64,000 nucleotides of DNA from a bacterium (lineage in GTDB: Bacteria; Elusimicrobiota; Elusimicrobia; UBA1565; UBA9628): positions 1 to 64,000 of the forward strand of contig JAJXVH010000008.1 of assembly GCA_021782205.1 (NCBI GenBank), given 5' to 3'. Each line of letters starts with the position of its first letter. The first letter of the stretch is position 1. This document shows, one piece after another, positions 3,533 through 11,596 of the stretch. The notes below the pieces were generated by a model. That model made no database searches and was not told the DNA's origin. It was given only the letters and a program-made list of their open reading frames with translations. A program made the position numbers and the translations under genes.

Positions 3533-3760
3533 TCAAGCCCGCGTCGCCTTGAGCAGATCGCGCAAAAACGCTTTCCGGTCCGGCACCGCATGATAGGCCG
3601 CCGCCTTCTCGGGCGTGGAGCACAGCGTCACCACCGTGCCCGGGTCGAAGTAGACGCCGTGGCGGCGCAGGACCTCCAGGACCTGGTCGCGGTCGCGCGC
3701 CAGCAGGTCGAACAGCCGCGGCTTTCGCCGCGCTACGCCGCCGCGCTTTCTTTTCGCCAC
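3533..3760 (-). CDS. small basic protein of unknown function at the end of the acyl-CoA operon
   Basis: A 75-residue protein starting with GTG at 3760, overlapping the last 28 bases of the dehydrogenase gene in another frame. It starts with a basic stretch (AKRKRGGVARRKPR) and continues with a compact part containing LFDLLARDRDQVLEVLRRHG and PDRKAFLRDLL, which looks like a real folded helical domain. It is hidden in the ORF track inside the ORF 3533..4744, most of which is a shadow of the dehydrogenase. No family is recognised. Its position makes it the last gene of the operon that begins with the aldehyde dehydrogenase. Confidence 0.55.
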   Translation of the reverse strand: MAKRKRGGVARRKPRLFDLLARDRDQVLEVLRRHGVYFDPGTVVTLCSTPEKAAAYHAVPDRKAFLRDLLKATRA

Positions 3761-4803
3761 TCGAAGGGACCCTTGGGGAAGTTCATCGCCAGCTTCACGG
3801 CCACGTCCACGTCCGCGGCGGAGGCCGTGCCCTCGGAGACGACGCTCTCGGCTTCCGCGACGAGGGCCGCGCGCAGCGCCTCCCAGGCCGCGTCCGCCGA
3901 GGCCGCGCCGCCGGCGGCGCACGCAGCGTCGGGATTGACGCCGGCCTGGCGTCCGCCCTCGTAGAGATAAAACCCGCGTCCGGCCTTGCGGCCCACGGCG
4001 CCGCGCGCGACCAGCGCCTGCTGGAGCGCCGGCGGCGCGAAGCGCTCCGGACGGCCCAGCGCCTCGTAGATGGACTTCGTGATCGCCAGGTTGACGTCCA
4101 GGCCGATCAGGTCCATCAACTCGAAGGGTCCCATCGGCACGCCGCCGCGCTCGCGGCAGGCGCGGTCGATATCGGCTATCGCCGCGCCGGGGCCGAGCAG
4201 ACGCTGGGCGCTCACATAGTAAGGGCGCATCACGCGGTTGACGATGAAGCCGGGCACGTCGCGGACGTCCACCGGGGTGCGGCGCAGGCCCGAAAGCGCG
4301 AACTCCCAGACGCCGGAAAACACCTCCGGGGAGGTGCGCGGCGCGCGTACGAGCTCCACCAGGCGCGTGGCGACCGGCGGATTGAAGAAATGCATGCCGA
4401 GCGCGCGCTCCGGCGCGGCCGCGCGGACGATCACGTCGCGCACCGCCAACGACGAGGTGTTCGTGGCCAGCACCGCGTCCGGCAGGGCGCGCGACAGGCG
4501 CTCGAAAAGGTCCTGCTTGAGCGCCAGGTCCTCCGGCGCCGCCTCGATGACTAGGTCCGCGCCCGCGAGATCTTCCAGCGCCGCCGCCGCGCTCACCGCG
4601 TGGAAGGCGCGCTCGGCCTGCTGGGTGGAAAGCTTGCCCTTGAGCACCGCCGCGTCCAGCGCCGCGCGCAGGCGTCCCGGCAATGCCTCCAGCGCCGCCG
4701 GCAAAGGATCGTGAACCTTCACGGAAAACCCCGACTGCGCGCACAACTGGGCGATGCCGGCGCCCATCGTGCCCGCGCCGATCACGGCGACGCGCGCGAT
4801 CAC
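3733..4803 (-). CDS. paaH: 3-hydroxyacyl-CoA dehydrogenase (PaaH/Hbd type)
   Basis: About 356 residues. It oxidises 3-hydroxyacyl-CoA to 3-ketoacyl-CoA with NAD in beta-oxidation or phenylacetate catabolism. The N-terminal Rossmann motif is VAVIGAGTMGAGIAQ. TNTSSLAV, HFFNPP, the VPGFIVNRVMRPYY hinge and GPFELMDLIGLDV are typical of the 3HCDH N- and C-terminal domains. After the first C-terminal domain (ending near GRGFYLYEGG) there is an extra half domain ending NFPKGPFEW, so it is longer than a 280-residue Hbd but shorter than the 500-residue PaaH. The start is GTG at 4803 overlapping the stop of the upstream gene (GTGA). The track's 528-residue ORF merges it with a shadow of that gene. The symbol is assigned by context. 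Confidence 0.85.
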   Translation of the reverse strand: MIARVAVIGAGTMGAGIAQLCAQSGFSVKVHDPLPAALEALPGRLRAALDAAVLKGKLSTQQAERAFHAVSAAAALEDLAGADLVIEAAPEDLALKQDLFERLSRALPDAVLATNTSSLAVRDVIVRAAAPERALGMHFFNPPVATRLVELVRAPRTSPEVFSGVWEFALSGLRRTPVDVRDVPGFIVNRVMRPYYVSAQRLLGPGAAIADIDRACRERGGVPMGPFELMDLIGLDVNLAITKSIYEALGRPERFAPPALQQALVARGAVGRKAGRGFYLYEGGRQAGVNPDAACAAGGAASADAAWEALRAALVAEAESVVSEGTASAADVDVAVKLAMNFPKGPFEWRKESAAA

Positions 4804-5531
4804 TCCGGTTCCATGAGCGCGCTCTGCAGGGGCAGCGCCACGCAGGCGGCCAGCGCGATGAAGGTCACCGCCGCGTCGACGACGAATCCGAGCACGCGAA
4901 AGGACGCCGTCGGAAAGCCGCCGGCGCCCGAGAGCGCGAACGCCAGTCCCGCGTTCAGCAGGCCGACCACGGCCTCCTGCAGGGCCCAGGAGCCCAGCAC
5001 CAGCGCGGTCCACAGTCCCGCCGACGCGTACGCGCGCCGCATGCCTTCGCGCAGCGCGGAGAAGAAACCTCTCTTCAGCCGCCGGCTGCCGAGCGCCAGG
5101 CTGGCGAGCACGGTGACCGCGCCCGAAGCGATCTTGCCCGACGCGAACGTCAGCAGGAGCAAGACCCGGGCCGGGGCTTGCGCCCCGGCGTGCAGGGCCA
5201 CGTAGAAAATTTGGAACGTGGCCAGCCCCACGACCGCGAGCGCGAACAGCGGCAAGGAGAAGAGCAGGCACGCCGCGCCGACGCGCGGCCAATCCCAGCC
5301 CGCGCCTTCGGCAAGCCATATCTCGGAGAACGCCGCGCAGGCCGCGACCGTCACCACGCCTCCGGCCACGGCGCCCAGCGCGGCGCCCGCCTGCCCCGAA
5401 AGCGCCGCCGAGAAATACGCGCGCGCCGCCACTCCCGCCAGCGGCGGAGCCAGCAGCCAGGGCCGAGACCGCGCGCGCTGGCGCGCGGCACGCAGGAGCG
5501 CGGCCGCGTCAGCCGGGGATGAAGGGCTCAT
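4800..5531 (-). CDS. polytopic membrane protein of unknown function
   Basis: About 243 residues, Ala/Leu-rich, with roughly five to six hydrophobic segments (for example VGAACLLFSLPLFALAVVGL and SAGLWTALVLGSWALQEAVV). It has no signal peptide and no recognisable family. The arrangement resembles membrane proteins whose middle helices carry a short amphipathic loop (LGSRRLKRGFFSALREGMRR). It overlaps the PaaA-like gene by 23 bases and the dehydrogenase by 4, so it is an integral member of the operon. A role in substrate uptake or electron delivery is possible but not supported by any motif. Confidence 0.6.
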   Translation of the reverse strand: MSPSSPADAAALLRAARQRARSRPWLLAPPLAGVAARAYFSAALSGQAGAALGAVAGGVVTVAACAAFSEIWLAEGAGWDWPRVGAACLLFSLPLFALAVVGLATFQIFYVALHAGAQAPARVLLLLTFASGKIASGAVTVLASLALGSRRLKRGFFSALREGMRRAYASAGLWTALVLGSWALQEAVVGLLNAGLAFALSGAGGFPTASFRVLGFVVDAAVTFIALAACVALPLQSALMEPE

Positions 5532-6336
5532 CGCTCATCCTGGCGGCGACCGGCGTCCAGTCCGGAACCCGAAGCCCGAACTTCGCCGCCTTCTCCTTGA
5601 TATCGGCGGCGAAAGCGCGGCGGACTTCATCGTTGTCGCGCTTCTTGAGGCCGTATTTTCGGTAGAGGGCGTTTTTAGGAGAATTCGCGCGGCCGAAGAT
5701 GTTCATGGTGCGCGGATACCACTTCTCGAAGGCGGCCTGCACGTCGTCGTGCGTCTTCTCGCCCTCGGAGAGCTTCTTGGTCCATTGGTCGCCGTGGGCC
5801 ATGTGCATCTCCTCCTCCTTGAAGATTCCCTCCATGCCGTCGCACCACGGCTTATAGGAGCAGTCCAGGCTGTCCTCCAGCTGATGTCCCGCGCCGCGGT
5901 CCATGCAGAAGTTGAACATGATGAAGTCCGACCATTCCTCGATCGGGTAGTAGAAGATGTTGACGCGCTTGTCGTCGGCGGCCCGAAGCGTGCCGATGTC
6001 GCCCGCGTCGACGCGCAGGTTGAAGTTGTGGCTCTTGTAGTAGGCGTCGACGTCCACTTCCAGGCCTTCCAAAAGGCGATACATCACGCGCGCGTGGCGG
6101 ACCTCGTCCTTGACGATCTGTGCCACCTGCAAAGTCTCCTTGATGTCCGGCGACTTCTGGATCCAGGGCACGTAGCCGAACGCGCCGGCCAGCTCCGAGT
6201 CGGCCTGCATCATCATCAGGTTGGTCAGATGCTCGCGGTACTCGTCGGACATCTCCGCGGTCTCCTCGATTTTTCCGCCCTTGGAGATCTTCTCCAGCAG
6301 TCTCTCCTCGCGCACGCGATTGGGTTCCAGAGTCAT
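5509..6336 (-). CDS. PaaA-like diiron oxygenase subunit (phenylacetyl-CoA epoxidase A family)
   Basis: 275 residues of the phenylacetic acid catabolic PaaA/PaaC family, a ferritin-like four-helix bundle holding a diiron centre. Metal ligands are visible as the Glu in ADSELAG, DEVRH in KDEVRHARVMY and EEEMH in FKEEEMHMAHG. The C-terminal FGRANSP..NALYRKYGLKKRDNDEVR follows the PaaA pattern (FGPNDDNSPNS..KIKRFTNDELR in the E. coli protein as I remember it). PaaA needs PaaC as structural partner and PaaE as reductase, and none of PaaB-E is in this operon. The protein is somewhat shorter than E. coli PaaA (about 309). It could be a stand-alone or redirected hydroxylase. The start ATG lies 1 nt after the upstream gene. 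Confidence 0.8.
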   Translation of the reverse strand: MTLEPNRVREERLLEKISKGGKIEETAEMSDEYREHLTNLMMMQADSELAGAFGYVPWIQKSPDIKETLQVAQIVKDEVRHARVMYRLLEGLEVDVDAYYKSHNFNLRVDAGDIGTLRAADDKRVNIFYYPIEEWSDFIMFNFCMDRGAGHQLEDSLDCSYKPWCDGMEGIFKEEEMHMAHGDQWTKKLSEGEKTHDDVQAAFEKWYPRTMNIFGRANSPKNALYRKYGLKKRDNDEVRRAFAADIKEKAAKFGLRVPDWTPVAARMSDEPFIPG

Positions 6337-6337
6337 G

Positions 6338-7144
6338 TCATTCTCCTGTGAACGTCGGGAGCCGCTTCTCCAGGAACGCGGCGATCCCTTCGGCGTGGTC
6401 CTTCGTGCGGCCCAGGTGGGACTGCAGTTGGGCCTCGTATTCGAGCTGATCTTCCAACGAGACGGCTTCGACGCCGCGGTTGAACGCGCGCTTGGTCAGC
6501 GCGACGGCCAGGGGCGGCACGGCGGCCAGAGCCGCGCAAAGCTCCGCGACGGCGGCGTCCAGTTCCTCGGGCGCCACGACCCGGTTCACCAGCCCCAGCC
6601 GCAAGGCTTTTTCCGCGTCGATGCTGCGCGACAGCCACGCGTGCTCGAGGGCCAGCGACAGGCCCAGCGCGCGCGGCAGAAACCACGACATGCCGGAGTC
6701 CGGCACCAGGCCGACCTTGGCGAAGGCATTGAGGAACTTCGCGTCCGCCGCGCAGACCTTCAGGTCGCAGGCGAGAGCCAGGCTTGCGCCCGCTCCGGCC
6801 GCGGCACCCCGCACCGCCGCGATCACCGGCTTCTCCACGCGGCGGATCGCGGCGATCAAAGGGTTGAACGTGCGCCGCAGCTCCGCGCCGTGCTCGAAGC
6901 GGCCCTGCGCCTGGCGGACCTTCACGTCGCCCAGGTCCGCGCCCGCGCAGAACGCCCGGCCGGCGCCCGCGATCACGATGGCGCGCACGGCCTGGTCGCG
7001 TCCGGCCTTGGTCACCGCCTCGGCCAGGCCCCGCAGCATGGTCGCGGTCAGAGCGTTGAGCGCATCGGGCCGGTGCAGCGTCAAGGTCAGGACGCCGCCG
7101 CGCGTCTCGGACAGGAATTCGGCGGGGGGGATCTCGGCGCTCAT
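6338..7144 (-). CDS. paaG: enoyl-CoA hydratase/isomerase family protein, PaaG-like
   Basis: 268 residues of the crotonase fold. FCAGADLGDV and GAAAGAGASLALACDL supply the CoA-ester oxyanion hole. The active-site region FAKVGLVPDSGMSW has an Asp at the position used by PaaG-type isomerases (VPD), where hydratases have Glu. In the phenylacetate pathway PaaG converts ring-1,2-epoxyphenylacetyl-CoA to the oxepin. Overlap of 4 bases (ATGA) with the upstream crotonase and a 1-base gap to the PaaA-like gene place both reactions together. The gene name is by similarity and context; a general enoyl-CoA isomerase cannot be excluded. Confidence 0.8.
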   Translation of the reverse strand: MSAEIPPAEFLSETRGGVLTLTLHRPDALNALTATMLRGLAEAVTKAGRDQAVRAIVIAGAGRAFCAGADLGDVKVRQAQGRFEHGAELRRTFNPLIAAIRRVEKPVIAAVRGAAAGAGASLALACDLKVCAADAKFLNAFAKVGLVPDSGMSWFLPRALGLSLALEHAWLSRSIDAEKALRLGLVNRVVAPEELDAAVAELCAALAAVPPLAVALTKRAFNRGVEAVSLEDQLEYEAQLQSHLGRTKDHAEGIAAFLEKRLPTFTGE

Positions 7145-7926
7145 CGGCCCTCGAACGCCGGCGCGCGCTTCTCGGCGAAGGCGCGCATGCCCTCGGCCTG
7201 ATCGTTCGTGTCGAACAGGGCGTAGAAGGCCTCGCGCTCGGCCTTGAGGCCCGCGTCGAGACCCCGGTCGGCCGCGGCGGCGACGGCCAGCTTGGCCGCG
7301 CGCGCGGCCAGGGGCGCGAGCTCCGCGATGCGGCGCGCCAGGCGCTTGGCCTCGTCGAGCAGGACTTCGGGCGCGACCACGCGGCTGACCAGGCCGCGCT
7401 CCAGCGCCTCGCGCGCGCCCAGGCGGCGTCCGGTCAGCGCCATGTCCATGGCCAGCGCCTTGCCCACGGCCTTGGTCAGGCGCTGCGTGCCGCCGGCGCC
7501 CGGGATCACGCCCAGCTGGATCTCCGGCTGGCCGAACACGGCGTTTTCCGCGGCCACGATCAGGTCGCAGGCCAGCGCCAGCTCGCAGCCGCCGCCCAGC
7601 GCGTAGCCCGCCACCGCCGCGATCGTCGGCTTCTTCAGACGACCCACCCGGTCCCAGCGCGCCAGGTGCTCGCCCAGCGCCGCGCGCGCGGCCTTGCCGG
7701 AGGCCAGGTCCTTCATCTCGGCGATGTCCGCGCCCGCCGCGAACGCGCGCGGCCCGCCGGTCACGATGACCGCGCGAATCTCCGGCGCGGCTTCGAACTC
7801 CGCCAGCGCGCCCTCCAGTTCCTTCATCATCGACAGCGACAGCGCGTTGAGCGCGTGCGGGCGGTGCAGCGTCGCCACACCCACGGGCCCGTCGCGTTCG
7901 ATCAGGACCTCGCGCTCGACGTTCAT
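7141..7926 (-). CDS. paaF: enoyl-CoA hydratase, PaaF/short-chain crotonase type
   Basis: 261 residues and a textbook crotonase. AAGADIAEM and AGYALGGGCELALACD form the oxyanion hole. The two catalytic Glu residues are visible in GGGCE and GQPEIQLGVIPGAGGTQRL. It hydrates 2-enoyl-CoA to 3-hydroxyacyl-CoA, feeding the 3-hydroxyacyl-CoA dehydrogenase further down the operon. The start ATG shares one base with the stop of the aldehyde dehydrogenase gene (TAATG), so translation is coupled. It could equally be a general beta-oxidation EchA; the PaaF label rests on neighbours. Confidence 0.85.
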   Translation of the reverse strand: MNVEREVLIERDGPVGVATLHRPHALNALSLSMMKELEGALAEFEAAPEIRAVIVTGGPRAFAAGADIAEMKDLASGKAARAALGEHLARWDRVGRLKKPTIAAVAGYALGGGCELALACDLIVAAENAVFGQPEIQLGVIPGAGGTQRLTKAVGKALAMDMALTGRRLGAREALERGLVSRVVAPEVLLDEAKRLARRIAELAPLAARAAKLAVAAAADRGLDAGLKAEREAFYALFDTNDQAEGMRAFAEKRAPAFEGR

Positions 7927-9431
7927 TAATTCAGGTCCACCCAGACCGACTTCAGCGCCGTGTAGTTCTCAAGAGCGTAGGCGCCCTTCTCGCGGCCGTA
8001 GCCGCTCTGCTTGACGCCGCCCCAGGGGGCGGCCGCGTCGACGAAGTGGTAGCAGTTGATCCAGACCGTGCCGGCCTTGATCTTCTGCGCCATCTGGTGG
8101 GCGCGCTTGACGTCCTTGGTCCACACCGCGGACACCAGGCCGTAGTCGGTGCCGTTGGCGCGGGCCACGACCTCGTCGACGGAGTCAAACGGCATCACCG
8201 CGACCACGGGCCCGAAGATCTCCTCGCGCGCGATCGTCATCTCGTCTTTCACCGCGCCGAACACGGTCGGAGAAACGAAGTAGCCGGGGCCCGGCGCCGC
8301 CGCGCCGCCGGACAGCAGTTGCGCGCCGTCCTTGCGGCCGCTCTCGATGTAGGAGAGCACGCGCTTTCTCTGCTCGTCCGAGACCACGGGCCCCATGTGG
8401 GTTTTTGGATCCAACGGGTTTCCCAATTTGACCGTCTTGGACCTGTCGGCAAGCGCCCCCAGCATTTTTTCATACACCGGCCGCTCGATGAACACGCGCG
8501 AGCCGGCCGAGCAGCACTGGCCCTGGTTGTAGAAGATGCCGGTGAAGATGCCCTTGGCCGCGGCGTCCAGGTCCGCGTCGGCGAAGACGATGTTGGGCGA
8601 CTTGCCGCCCAGCTCCATGGTCACGCGTTTCATGTTGCCGGCGGACGCCTTGAGCACCTCGCGGCCGACCTCGGTGGAGCCGGTGAAGGTCACCTTGTCG
8701 ATCCCCATATGCCGCGCGATCGCGGCGCCCGCCGTGGGCCCGTAGCCCGGCACGACGTTGACGACGCCCGCGGGGACTCCCGCTTCCAGCAGAAGTTCTC
8801 CCAGCCACAGGGCGCTCAAGGGCGTCTGCTCGGCCGGCTTGAGGATCACGGCGTTGCCGCAGGCCAGCGCCGGCGCCAGGCGCTCGATGGCCATCAGCAG
8901 GGGGAAGTTCCACGGGATGATCGCGCCGACCACGCCCACGGGCTCGCGCACCGTGTAGTGCAGGAACTTCGCGCCGGGGTAATAGGGCACGGACACCGGC
9001 GTCGTCTCGCCGTGGATCTTGGTGGGCCAGCCGGCGAAGTAGCGCAGGAGGCCGACGGCCAGCGGCAGGTCCGCGTTCTTCGACTCGCGGATGGGTTTGC
9101 CGTTGTCGAGCGACTCCAGCTGCGCGAAGGCCTCGGCGCGGGCTTCCAGAAGGTCGGCGGCCTTGTGCAGGACGCGCTCGCGCTCGGCCGGCGACAGCTT
9201 CGACCACGGGCCCTCCAACGCCCGGCGCGCGGCGGCGACCGCGCGATCCACGTCGGCGGCGTCGGCCTCGGCGACGACGGCCAGGGTCTCGCCGGTGGCC
9301 GGGTTGGGCGTCGCGAAGGTCTTGCCGCTCTGCGCGCCGACACTCTGGCCGTCGATGAGAAGCTGATGGACCCGGCGCGACAGAAAATCCCGAAGGAGGG
9401 GGTGGACGTCGGAGAGGGCGGCGGTGGTCAT
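7926..9431 (-). CDS. NAD(P)-dependent aldehyde dehydrogenase
   Basis: About 501 residues of the ALDH superfamily, first gene of the operon. GAIIPWNFPL, FTGSTEVGRE, the general-base Glu in MELGGKSPN and the catalytic Cys in GQCCSAGSR (about residue 310) are all intact. The C-terminal EEIFGPVVAVMPF and PWGGVKQSGYGREKG are family hallmarks. In this context phenylacetaldehyde or an aromatic or open-chain semialdehyde is a plausible substrate, which is inference. The ATG at 9431 is preferred over the track start at 9485 because it begins the conserved protein and has GAGG about 10 nt upstream. The next gene overlaps by one base. Confidence 0.9.
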   Translation of the reverse strand: MTTAALSDVHPLLRDFLSRRVHQLLIDGQSVGAQSGKTFATPNPATGETLAVVAEADAADVDRAVAAARRALEGPWSKLSPAERERVLHKAADLLEARAEAFAQLESLDNGKPIRESKNADLPLAVGLLRYFAGWPTKIHGETTPVSVPYYPGAKFLHYTVREPVGVVGAIIPWNFPLLMAIERLAPALACGNAVILKPAEQTPLSALWLGELLLEAGVPAGVVNVVPGYGPTAGAAIARHMGIDKVTFTGSTEVGREVLKASAGNMKRVTMELGGKSPNIVFADADLDAAAKGIFTGIFYNQGQCCSAGSRVFIERPVYEKMLGALADRSKTVKLGNPLDPKTHMGPVVSDEQRKRVLSYIESGRKDGAQLLSGGAAAPGPGYFVSPTVFGAVKDEMTIAREEIFGPVVAVMPFDSVDEVVARANGTDYGLVSAVWTKDVKRAHQMAQKIKAGTVWINCYHFVDAAAPWGGVKQSGYGREKGAYALENYTALKSVWVDLN

Positions 9432-9519
9432 GTCGGGAGCCTCGCTGAAAGCCGCTTGACGCGCGGCGACAGCCCTATTGAACAAAATTAGCGCGAAATT
9501 GGAAGGTCTGTTGCGCGCA

Positions 9520-9548
9520 TTGACAGCGGCGGCTCCGCATGCTAAGCT
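9520..9548 (+). promoter_or_regulatory. sigma70-like promoter of the di-heme peroxidase gene
   Basis: A perfect TTGACA (9520-9525) is followed after 17 nt by TAAGCT (9543-9548). The peroxidase ATG is 37 nt downstream with AGGAGA in between. The 9432-9585 gap is also the divergent control region for the aldehyde dehydrogenase operon. Its AT-rich patch near 9484-9505 (AATTAGCGCGAAATT, near-palindromic) could bind a regulator, but I could not assign a promoter for the minus strand. Confidence 0.5.
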
Positions 9549-9585
9549 TATTTATTGGATAATAGTTATTAAACAGGAGAATCCC

Positions 9586-10608
9586 ATGGTCCTTTATGTT
9601 CTGGCCCTCGCCTTGGCCGCGGCGCCCGCGCCGGTCCGCGCCGACGACTTCGGCGGCTCCGACTACCCGTACAAAGTTCCGCTCGGGCTCAAGTTCGCGC
9701 CCGACGTTCCGACGGACAACCCGATCACCGACGCGAAGGTCGCCTTGGGCAAACTCCTCTATTTCGACAAGCGCCTGTCGCGCGACGGCACGGTTTCTTG
9801 CGCGACTTGCCATGATCCGGCGAAGGGCTGGACGGACCGCGCGCCCGTTTCCACCGGCATCCGGGGACAGCACGGCACGCGCTCGGCGCCCACGGTGCTC
9901 AACGCGGCCTACATGGACGTCCAGTTCTGGGACGGCCGCGCGGCCAGCCTGGAGGAGCAGGCCAAGGGTCCCATCGAAAATCCCGTGGAGATGGGCTTTA
10001 CTCACGCGGAGGCCGCCGCGCGCATCGCCGGCCTCAAAGGCTACGCGCCCTACTTCAAGGCCGCCTTCGGCGACGACACGGTGGACATCGACCGCGTGGC
10101 CAAGGCGATCGCCAGCTTCGAGCGCACCGTTCTGACCGGCAACGCGCCCTACGACCGCTGGCAGGCCGGAGACAAGAACGCCATGAGCCCGGCCGCGATC
10201 CGGGGCCTGGCCCTGTTCAACGACCCGAAGAAGGCCGACTGCGCGTTCTGCCACAGCGGATTCAACTTCTCCGACTCATCCTTCCACAACCTGGGCGTGG
10301 GCCTGAAGGCCGCCCAGCCCGACCTGGGCCGCTTCGCCGTGACCAAGCAGGACAAGGACCGCGGCGCGTTCAAGACGCCGACCTTGCGCAACCTGGCCGA
10401 CACCGCGCCCTACATGCACGACGGCTCCGAGAAAACCCTCCAGCAGGTCGTGGAGTTCTACAACCGCGGCGGCGACAAAAATCCCCAACTGGACGGCCAC
10501 ATCCGCCCCCTGCACTTGACGCCCGGGGAGGTCGGGGACTTGGTCGCGTTCCTGGACGCGCTCAACGGCGACAAGGTGCTGATCGCGCCGCCGAAGCTTC
10601 CCGAGTAA
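9586..10608 (+). CDS. di-heme cytochrome c peroxidase (MauG/CcpA family)
   Basis: About 340 residues, exported: a signal peptide starts at the ATG at 9586, which has an ideal AGGAGA six bases upstream (the track start at 9478 is in the promoter). Two c-type heme sites are visible, CATCHDP (about residue 70) and CAFCHSG (about residue 222). The KTPTLRNLADTAPYMHDGS block is typical of bacterial cytochrome c peroxidases and MauG. It acts in the periplasm, reducing H2O2 or oxidising a protein or small substrate with electrons from cytochrome c. It is divergent from the aldehyde dehydrogenase operon. Maturation requires a cytochrome c assembly system not seen here. Confidence 0.9.
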   Translation: MVLYVLALALAAAPAPVRADDFGGSDYPYKVPLGLKFAPDVPTDNPITDAKVALGKLLYFDKRLSRDGTVSCATCHDPAKGWTDRAPVSTGIRGQHGTRSAPTVLNAAYMDVQFWDGRAASLEEQAKGPIENPVEMGFTHAEAAARIAGLKGYAPYFKAAFGDDTVDIDRVAKAIASFERTVLTGNAPYDRWQAGDKNAMSPAAIRGLALFNDPKKADCAFCHSGFNFSDSSFHNLGVGLKAAQPDLGRFAVTKQDKDRGAFKTPTLRNLADTAPYMHDGSEKTLQQVVEFYNRGGDKNPQLDGHIRPLHLTPGEVGDLVAFLDALNGDKVLIAPPKLPE

Positions 10609-11092: not shown

Positions 11093-11596
11093 ATGCTAGA
11101 AACGGGAATCGAAAACTGGCCCGAAGCCGATTGGACCCGGGTCCAGCCCTTCCCGTTCACGGAGGCCCGCGCGGCGTTCGCGGGGCTCACCGCCGACGAG
11201 GGACGGCTGGAGCTGGCCTACTACCGCCGGCCGCGCGACGGCGCGCTGGTGGCGGTCGCGGACTTCGGCCCGCGCGCGCAGGGCGCGCCGGGGCTGGTGC
11301 ACGGCGGCATGATCCTGACCGTTCTTGATGAAGCGCTGGGCGCGGCCTGCTGGGTGGCGGGACACCCGTCCTTGACCGTGCGCCTGACCACGGACTTCCG
11401 CCGCAGCGTGCCGCTGGGCGCGCGCGCGCTCGTGGAGACGCGCGTGGAGCCCGCGCGCCACCGCCTGGCTTCGGCGTCCGGAACCTTGCGCGGCCCGGAC
11501 GGCACCGTCTACGCCGCGGCCGAGGGCCGCTTCATGCGCCTGGACGACGCCGCGTACGCGCGCCTGTTCGGGCGGCCGGCGCCGGGAAACTGCTAA
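11093..11596 (+). CDS. PaaI/4HBT-family hotdog thioesterase
   Basis: 167 residues with a C-terminal hotdog domain. GLVHGGMILTVLDEALG carries the HGG and Asp/Glu active-site pattern of PaaI-type acyl-CoA thioesterases, and TVRLTTDFRRSVPLGARALVETRV is the characteristic central strand region. These enzymes hydrolyse acyl-CoA esters; PaaI removes stalled phenylacetate-pathway CoA intermediates. The nearby acyl-CoA operon makes a similar role attractive, though it is transcribed separately. About 40 N-terminal residues precede the domain. Confidence 0.8.
   Translation: MLETGIENWPEADWTRVQPFPFTEARAAFAGLTADEGRLELAYYRRPRDGALVAVADFGPRAQGAPGLVHGGMILTVLDEALGAACWVAGHPSLTVRLTTDFRRSVPLGARALVETRVEPARHRLASASGTLRGPDGTVYAAAEGRFMRLDDAAYARLFGRPAPGNC

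Follow-up and report, generated by a model that had tools for sequence, protein, structure and literature searches.

Phenylacetyl-CoA epoxidase has been described as an obligate complex of several subunits. The catalytic PaaA subunit of this 1,2-phenylacetyl-CoA epoxidase, PaaABCE (PDB 3PVR, 3PW8, 4IIT), carries in E. coli the diiron ligands E42, E72, H75, D126, E155 and H158, and the E. coli protein is insoluble by itself and requires PaaC (PMC4498308). BoxB, the benzoyl-CoA 2,3-epoxidase (PDB 3PM5), is an oxygenase of the same fold that has no structural subunit, contacts its reductase only transiently and epoxidises an aromatic CoA ester; BoxC co-purifies with BoxB (PMC4498308). A survey published in 2026 and covering 6,536 genomes took the PaaA-PaaC pair as the marker of the pathway and found both proteins together in all 825 ligase-bearing genomes; it makes no mention of Elusimicrobiota (PMC13186573).

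Here, we analyzed a stretch of 64,000 nucleotides from an uncultured aerobic bacterium of the Elusimicrobiota (contig JAJXVH010000008.1 of assembly GCA_021782205.1), referred to below as the window. An earlier note on this DNA had reported a PaaA-like gene with intact diiron ligands, lying among aldehyde dehydrogenase (ALDH), PaaF-, PaaG- and PaaH-like genes and lacking PaaB, PaaC, PaaD, PaaE and the ligase PaaK. The gene corresponds to an exact open reading frame at 5509-6336 on the minus strand (ATG start, TGA stop, 1 base off the end of the PaaG-like gene) that encodes a protein of 275 aa. This protein matches the Pfam family PF05138 (PaaA_PaaC) with 132 bits (cut-off 28.5) and thus belongs to the superfamily. 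It scored 116.9 bits against the NCBIfam PaaA equivalog TIGR02156, under the cut-off of 280, and the PaaC and BoxB models fit poorer still: the BoxB equivalog TIGR03225 gave 27.6 bits, under its cut-off of 499, and the protein falls short of the length of ~470 aa. Filing it as PaaA or BoxB was dropped because several of the defining features are missing.

The alignment with E. coli PaaA bore out the claim on the active site, since all six diiron ligands are matched by the same residue types: E48 (E42 in E. coli; 6193-6195), E78 and H81 (E72 and H75; 6094-6105), D146 (D126; 5899-5901), and E175 and H178 (E155 and H158; 5803-5814), all encoded on the minus strand. These six residues are invariant across an alignment of 21 sequences of the clade described below. 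F128, which corresponds to the substrate-orienting F108 of PaaA, is also invariant, and K123, the equivalent of the substrate-contact residue K103, is conserved. The lysine bridge of PaaA (K68 and E49), suggested to aid electron transfer from PaaE, is replaced by I74 and Y55 in the window protein and is missing throughout the clade. This loss fits a different electron route, although the bridge is also missing from Thermus PaaA as well as from BoxB. The single-chain AlphaFold2 model of the protein (pLDDT 88, pTM 0.85) found its best PDB fold match in E. coli PaaA (TM 0.80-0.82), followed by SSO1313 (4MUD), PaaC and BoxB. The protein is 27% identical to PaaA and differs from it by a loop insert of ~14 residues near positions 100-120. 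In each of the 25 loci measured, the PaaA-like protein exceeded PaaF, PaaG and PaaH in conservation, with a median identity of 84% to its window counterpart vs 59-67% for the other three.

The neighbours listed in the note were all recovered on the minus strand: the operon comprises the genes for the ALDH, the PaaF-like, PaaG-like, PaaA-like and PaaH-like proteins and a small protein, separated by gaps or overlaps of few bases. The ALDH (7926-9431; 501 aa; PF00171, 613 bits) is of the StyD/BADH class and not of the PaaZ class; its sequence is 46% identical to its counterpart from the Haloferax paa cluster vs 27% to E. coli PaaZ, and we propose that it may stand in for the ALDH domain of PaaZ. 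The paa clusters of haloarchaea (Haloferax, Haloarcula) possess a stand-alone ALDH of this same type (46% identity), but they differ in encoding PaaA, PaaB or PacF, PaaC, PaaD, PaaE and PaaK. The PaaF-like enoyl-CoA hydratase (7141-7926; 261 aa; 46% identity to E. coli PaaF) retains both catalytic glutamates, as in E. coli PaaF. For the PaaG-like isomerase (6338-7144; 268 aa; 42% identity to E. coli PaaG), the best model was NCBIfam PaaG with 255.7 bits, below the cut-off of 345; it lacks both hydratase glutamates and presents the PaaG-type aspartate (VPDSG), as does E. coli PaaG. The PaaH-like 3-hydroxyacyl-CoA dehydrogenase (3733-4803; 356 aa; GTG start; PF02737 and PF00725) is 43% identical to E. 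coli PaaH and was assigned by homology only. The operon showed no ring hydrolase of the PaaZ type (MaoC domain).

Two genes of the minus strand had been overlooked in the note. One, at 4800-5531 between the PaaA-like and PaaH-like genes, encodes a lineage-restricted membrane protein of 243 aa with no match in Pfam or NCBIfam, and it is present in only some of the loci of the same genus. The other, at 3533-3760, encodes a conserved operon member of ~75 aa whose start is uncertain. In most loci its homologues lie either after PaaH or next to PaaA, and in most complete loci the gene follows PaaH. The small protein of the window itself yielded no match to TIGR03980 or DUF1858, and its relatives yielded weak ones (22.9 bits vs a cut-off of 44.95); it is related to this hybrid-cluster-associated redox disulfide domain. 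Most other lineages present a CxxC motif in this protein, where the window and its genus present DPGT. Small proteins with an EthD domain were observed upstream of PaaF/PaaG in L035, L115, L116, L117 and L120, and a GYD-like protein at L033:2217-2507; these could be PaaB-like helpers. Near the operon, a hotdog thioesterase gene on the plus strand (11093-11596; PF03061, 43.8 bits) was kept in ~10 loci of the same genus and possibly encodes a PaaI analogue. A gene for a MauG/MbnH-like di-haem peroxidase (9478-10608, plus strand) is divergent from the operon and kept in some relatives of the same genus; its divergent transcription and partial retention led us to exclude it from the operon.

About 30 loci share the order ALDH, PaaF-like, PaaG-like, PaaA-like, a variable insert, PaaH-like and small protein. 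In the early-branching loci (L119, L121 and L122), the order is ALDH, PaaA-like, PaaH-like, small protein and PaaJ-like thiolase, then PaaF and PaaG. The PaaG and PaaA-like genes are neighbours in nearly all loci. A PaaJ/PcaF-type thiolase is linked to the locus in other lineages and is unlinked in the genome of the window (529 bits).

We then considered the absent partner subunits. The genome of the window is a metagenome-assembled genome (MAG) of 3.09 Mb in 177 contigs (95.64% complete), in which profile searches identified exactly one PF05138 gene and no match to PaaB (PF06243). The best scores for PaaK and PaaE were 85 bits (cut-off 646) and 53.5 bits (cut-off 420.8), respectively, and the sole PaaE-like match is a flavin/NAD domain of 243 aa on another contig. 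The absence reported by the note for PaaB, PaaC, PaaE and PaaK thus extends to the whole genome, and a complete paaABCDE locus, which would have refuted the note, was not found. PaaD is a generic MIP18 domain, and the genome-wide absence results cover the PaaB, PaaC and PaaE families. Because MAGs are incomplete, the genomes of relatives provide the key result on this point. The closed 3.8-Mb chromosome CP096137.1, from the genus of the window and from an organism described as an aerobic heterotroph (PMC9476967), possesses exactly one PF05138 gene. Across the phylum, a PF05138 gene was found in 45 of 341 Elusimicrobiota genomes; 44 of these 45 carry one copy, the remaining genome carries two of the same type (L004 and L006), and none of the 341 genomes contains a PaaA and PaaC pair. 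A PaaK-type ligase above the cut-off was absent from all 38 Elusimicrobiota genomes searched, and no electron donor near the operon was conserved across loci.

The phylogeny, also proposed in the note, places the window protein outside canonical PaaA. In two maximum-likelihood trees, the PaaA-like proteins form one side of a branch that is distinct from both canonical PaaA and PaaC (support 98/98 in the 39-row tree and 97/98 in the 56-row tree), and the canonical PaaA group (100/99) excludes them. In the 56-row tree, the clade groups with BoxB, SSO1313, single proteins of Alphaproteobacteria and some Chloroflexota proteins (97/93), but BoxB forms a long branch, and by an AU test on the 39-row tree a position beside PaaA is not rejected either (P = 0.096). 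Members of the clade were found in three phyla: in Elusimicrobiota and, rarely, in genomes of the Cyanobacteriota lineage (Tanganyikabacteria, Vampirovibrionales and others) and in Chloroflexota. Only 3 of 400 Chloroflexota genomes scored above 420 bits, with one match each, and the next match of any kind reached 144 bits; this gap indicates that the boundary of the family is sharp. Chloroflexota also contain two further groups of short PF05138-type proteins, likewise uncharacterised (L098, L099-L102, L104 and L105), which the tree places close to SSO1313/4MUD and BoxB. A haem-copper oxidase was present in all 30 positive relatives, as expected for an O2-using enzyme, vs 5 of 8 negatives (P = 0.007; Fisher test, uncorrected for kinship).

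Other members of the superfamily share part of these features. BoxB and the window protein have in common a DR.G..QL motif at the fourth ligand helix, but BoxB is longer (~475 aa, with extra regions) and 23% identical to the window protein; no BoxA was found in the eight flanks searched. The nearest solved relative outside PaaA is SSO1313 of Sulfolobus (PDB 4MUD), an uncharacterised PaaA-like protein (TM 0.72 by query length and 0.88 by target length) that is shorter, ~25% identical and located on a separate branch. The single PF05138 proteins of Alphaproteobacteria (Ruegeria, Rhizobium, Bartonella) possess a similar loop insert and are likewise single gene products, but their diiron ligands are altered; they are possibly a regulatory or scaffold paralogue. 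These proteins were observed at L055:5971-6732, at L057:5959-6759 and in L060 near 5914-6751, and the gene of Ruegeria directly follows a complete paaABCDE.

The locus of one Chloroflexota genome (G1020, L115) contains, in order, a PaaX-like N-terminal domain, PaaK, an EthD-domain protein, PaaG, the PaaA-like gene and PaaJ. Its PaaK aligns with E. coli PaaK at 51% identity over 439 aa and scores 563 bits (under the cut-off of 646), its PaaJ is 58% identical to E. coli PaaJ (604 bits) and its PaaA-like member is 58% identical to the window protein. This locus is the strongest evidence tying the clade to PHENYLACETATE, and it suggests phenylacetyl-CoA or a close relative as the substrate. The substrate is less certain in the genome of the window because no PaaK was found there and the matching thiolase is unlinked. 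An aryl-pyruvate ferredoxin oxidoreductase was considered as a ligase-free source of aryl-acetyl-CoA and rejected, as no genome passed the IOR_alpha cut-off.

On this comparative evidence, our main reading, which we judge somewhat better than an even bet, is that the gene codes for a PaaA/BoxB-superfamily diiron oxygenase with a single type of catalytic subunit, acting in aerobic CoA-ester ring degradation without PaaB, PaaC, PaaD or a dedicated PaaE. A bolder reading, with a probability of about 0.5, is more specific: the clade would be a self-sufficient, single-subunit epoxidase family of phenylacetyl-CoA, or of a close aryl-acyl-CoA, that serves a Paa route in three phyla without PaaB, PaaC, PaaD or PaaE. 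On the main reading, the enzyme would work like BoxB but supply a Paa-type ring-opening route, and it is by analogy with BoxB that we propose an epoxidase whose oligomeric state would involve one type of subunit, served by a general reductase. The most likely substrate of the PaaA-like protein would be phenylacetyl-CoA or a closely related aryl-acyl-CoA, which it would epoxidise with O2 and with electrons supplied by an unlinked ferredoxin or flavin reductase. Conversion of the epoxide to an oxepin-type ester would then fall to the PaaG-like isomerase, a step proposed because the PaaG and PaaA-like genes are adjacent and because BoxC co-purifies with BoxB. The ring would be hydrolysed, the ALDH would take over from PaaZ in oxidising the aldehyde, and the PaaF-like hydratase, the PaaH-like dehydrogenase and a PaaJ/PcaF-type thiolase would finish beta-oxidation. 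Several observations count against this explanation: the insolubility of E. coli PaaA without PaaC, the lack of a linked electron donor, the lack of a PaaK-type ligase above the cut-off in Elusimicrobiota, the lack of a MaoC-type ring hydrolase in the operon and the replaced lysine bridge, although Thermus PaaA and BoxB lack that bridge too.

The earlier note had allowed that the remaining subunits lie elsewhere or that the protein works by itself or together with a reductase that is not linked to it, possibly on another CoA ester. The former finds some room in the fragmented assembly (177 contigs, 95.6% complete), but the genome of the window lacks PaaB, the closed chromosome of the same genus carries one PF05138 gene and none of the 341 genomes of the phylum has the PaaA and PaaC pair. 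Partner genes hidden in assembly gaps are ruled out by this closed chromosome, the presence of PaaB, PaaC and PaaE elsewhere in the genome is excluded as far as the known families are concerned, and for PaaC it is refuted by that chromosome together with the survey of the phylum; we give this possibility almost no credence. Action alone or with an unlinked reductase remains as the candidate alternative left from that note. It is conceivable, if doubtful, that the same single-subunit oxygenase acts on another CoA ester (such as a different aromatic, a heteroaromatic or an alicyclic one) in Elusimicrobiota and that phenylacetyl-CoA is a substrate of the distant Chloroflexota members alone. The missing PaaK-type ligases (0 of 38 Elusimicrobiota genomes), the StyD/BADH class of the ALDH and the distance of the PaaK-linked member from the window protein would agree with this, but the PaaG-, PaaF-, PaaH- and PaaJ-type companions are all retained and F128 and K123 are conserved.

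An unrecognised, non-homologous partner could also replace PaaB or PaaC, for example the DUF1858-like protein in Elusimicrobiota and EthD/GYD-type proteins elsewhere. A small protein is linked to the gene in nearly every lineage (EthD in five non-Elusimicrobiota loci, the GYD-like protein in L033 and the DUF1858-like protein in Elusimicrobiota) and in E. coli PaaA by itself is insoluble (PMC4498308). No one candidate, however, is common to all lineages, the DUF1858-like protein lacks the CxxC motif in the genus of the window and it was not seen beside the L115 member, so that we regard such a partner as unlikely. It is very improbable that the gene is a degenerating copy of PaaA or a ferritin-like protein that has ceased to act on CoA esters: the alphaproteobacterial single-copy relatives with lost ligands indicate that non-catalytic relatives exist, but all the ligands are invariant in the clade and the PaaA-like gene is the best conserved of the operon genes measured.

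The superfamily and the logic of the pathway were already known, and the partnerless architecture in a Paa-type operon is new as far as we searched: our literature search found nothing on this gene in Elusimicrobiota or Sericytochromatia, nor on SSO1313. If the single-subunit epoxidase reading is correct, the chemistry runs on one type of polypeptide, the clade offers a minimal system in which to ask what makes PaaB and PaaC necessary in other organisms, and PF05138 matches alone are not markers of the pathway. Elusimicrobiota is a phylum named after an anaerobic gut isolate, and the operon suggests a capacity for aerobic use of aromatic acids in this phylum. Two other loci presented unusual contexts. 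On an Alteromonas plasmid (L058:4941-7296), a PF05138 protein is encoded beside a radical SAM protein and a MaoC dehydratase with no other paa genes nearby. Finally, the catabolic cluster of L025 contains, between the thiolase and PaaF (L025:13117-14756), genes for a DNA methylase and for a BglII-like endonuclease.
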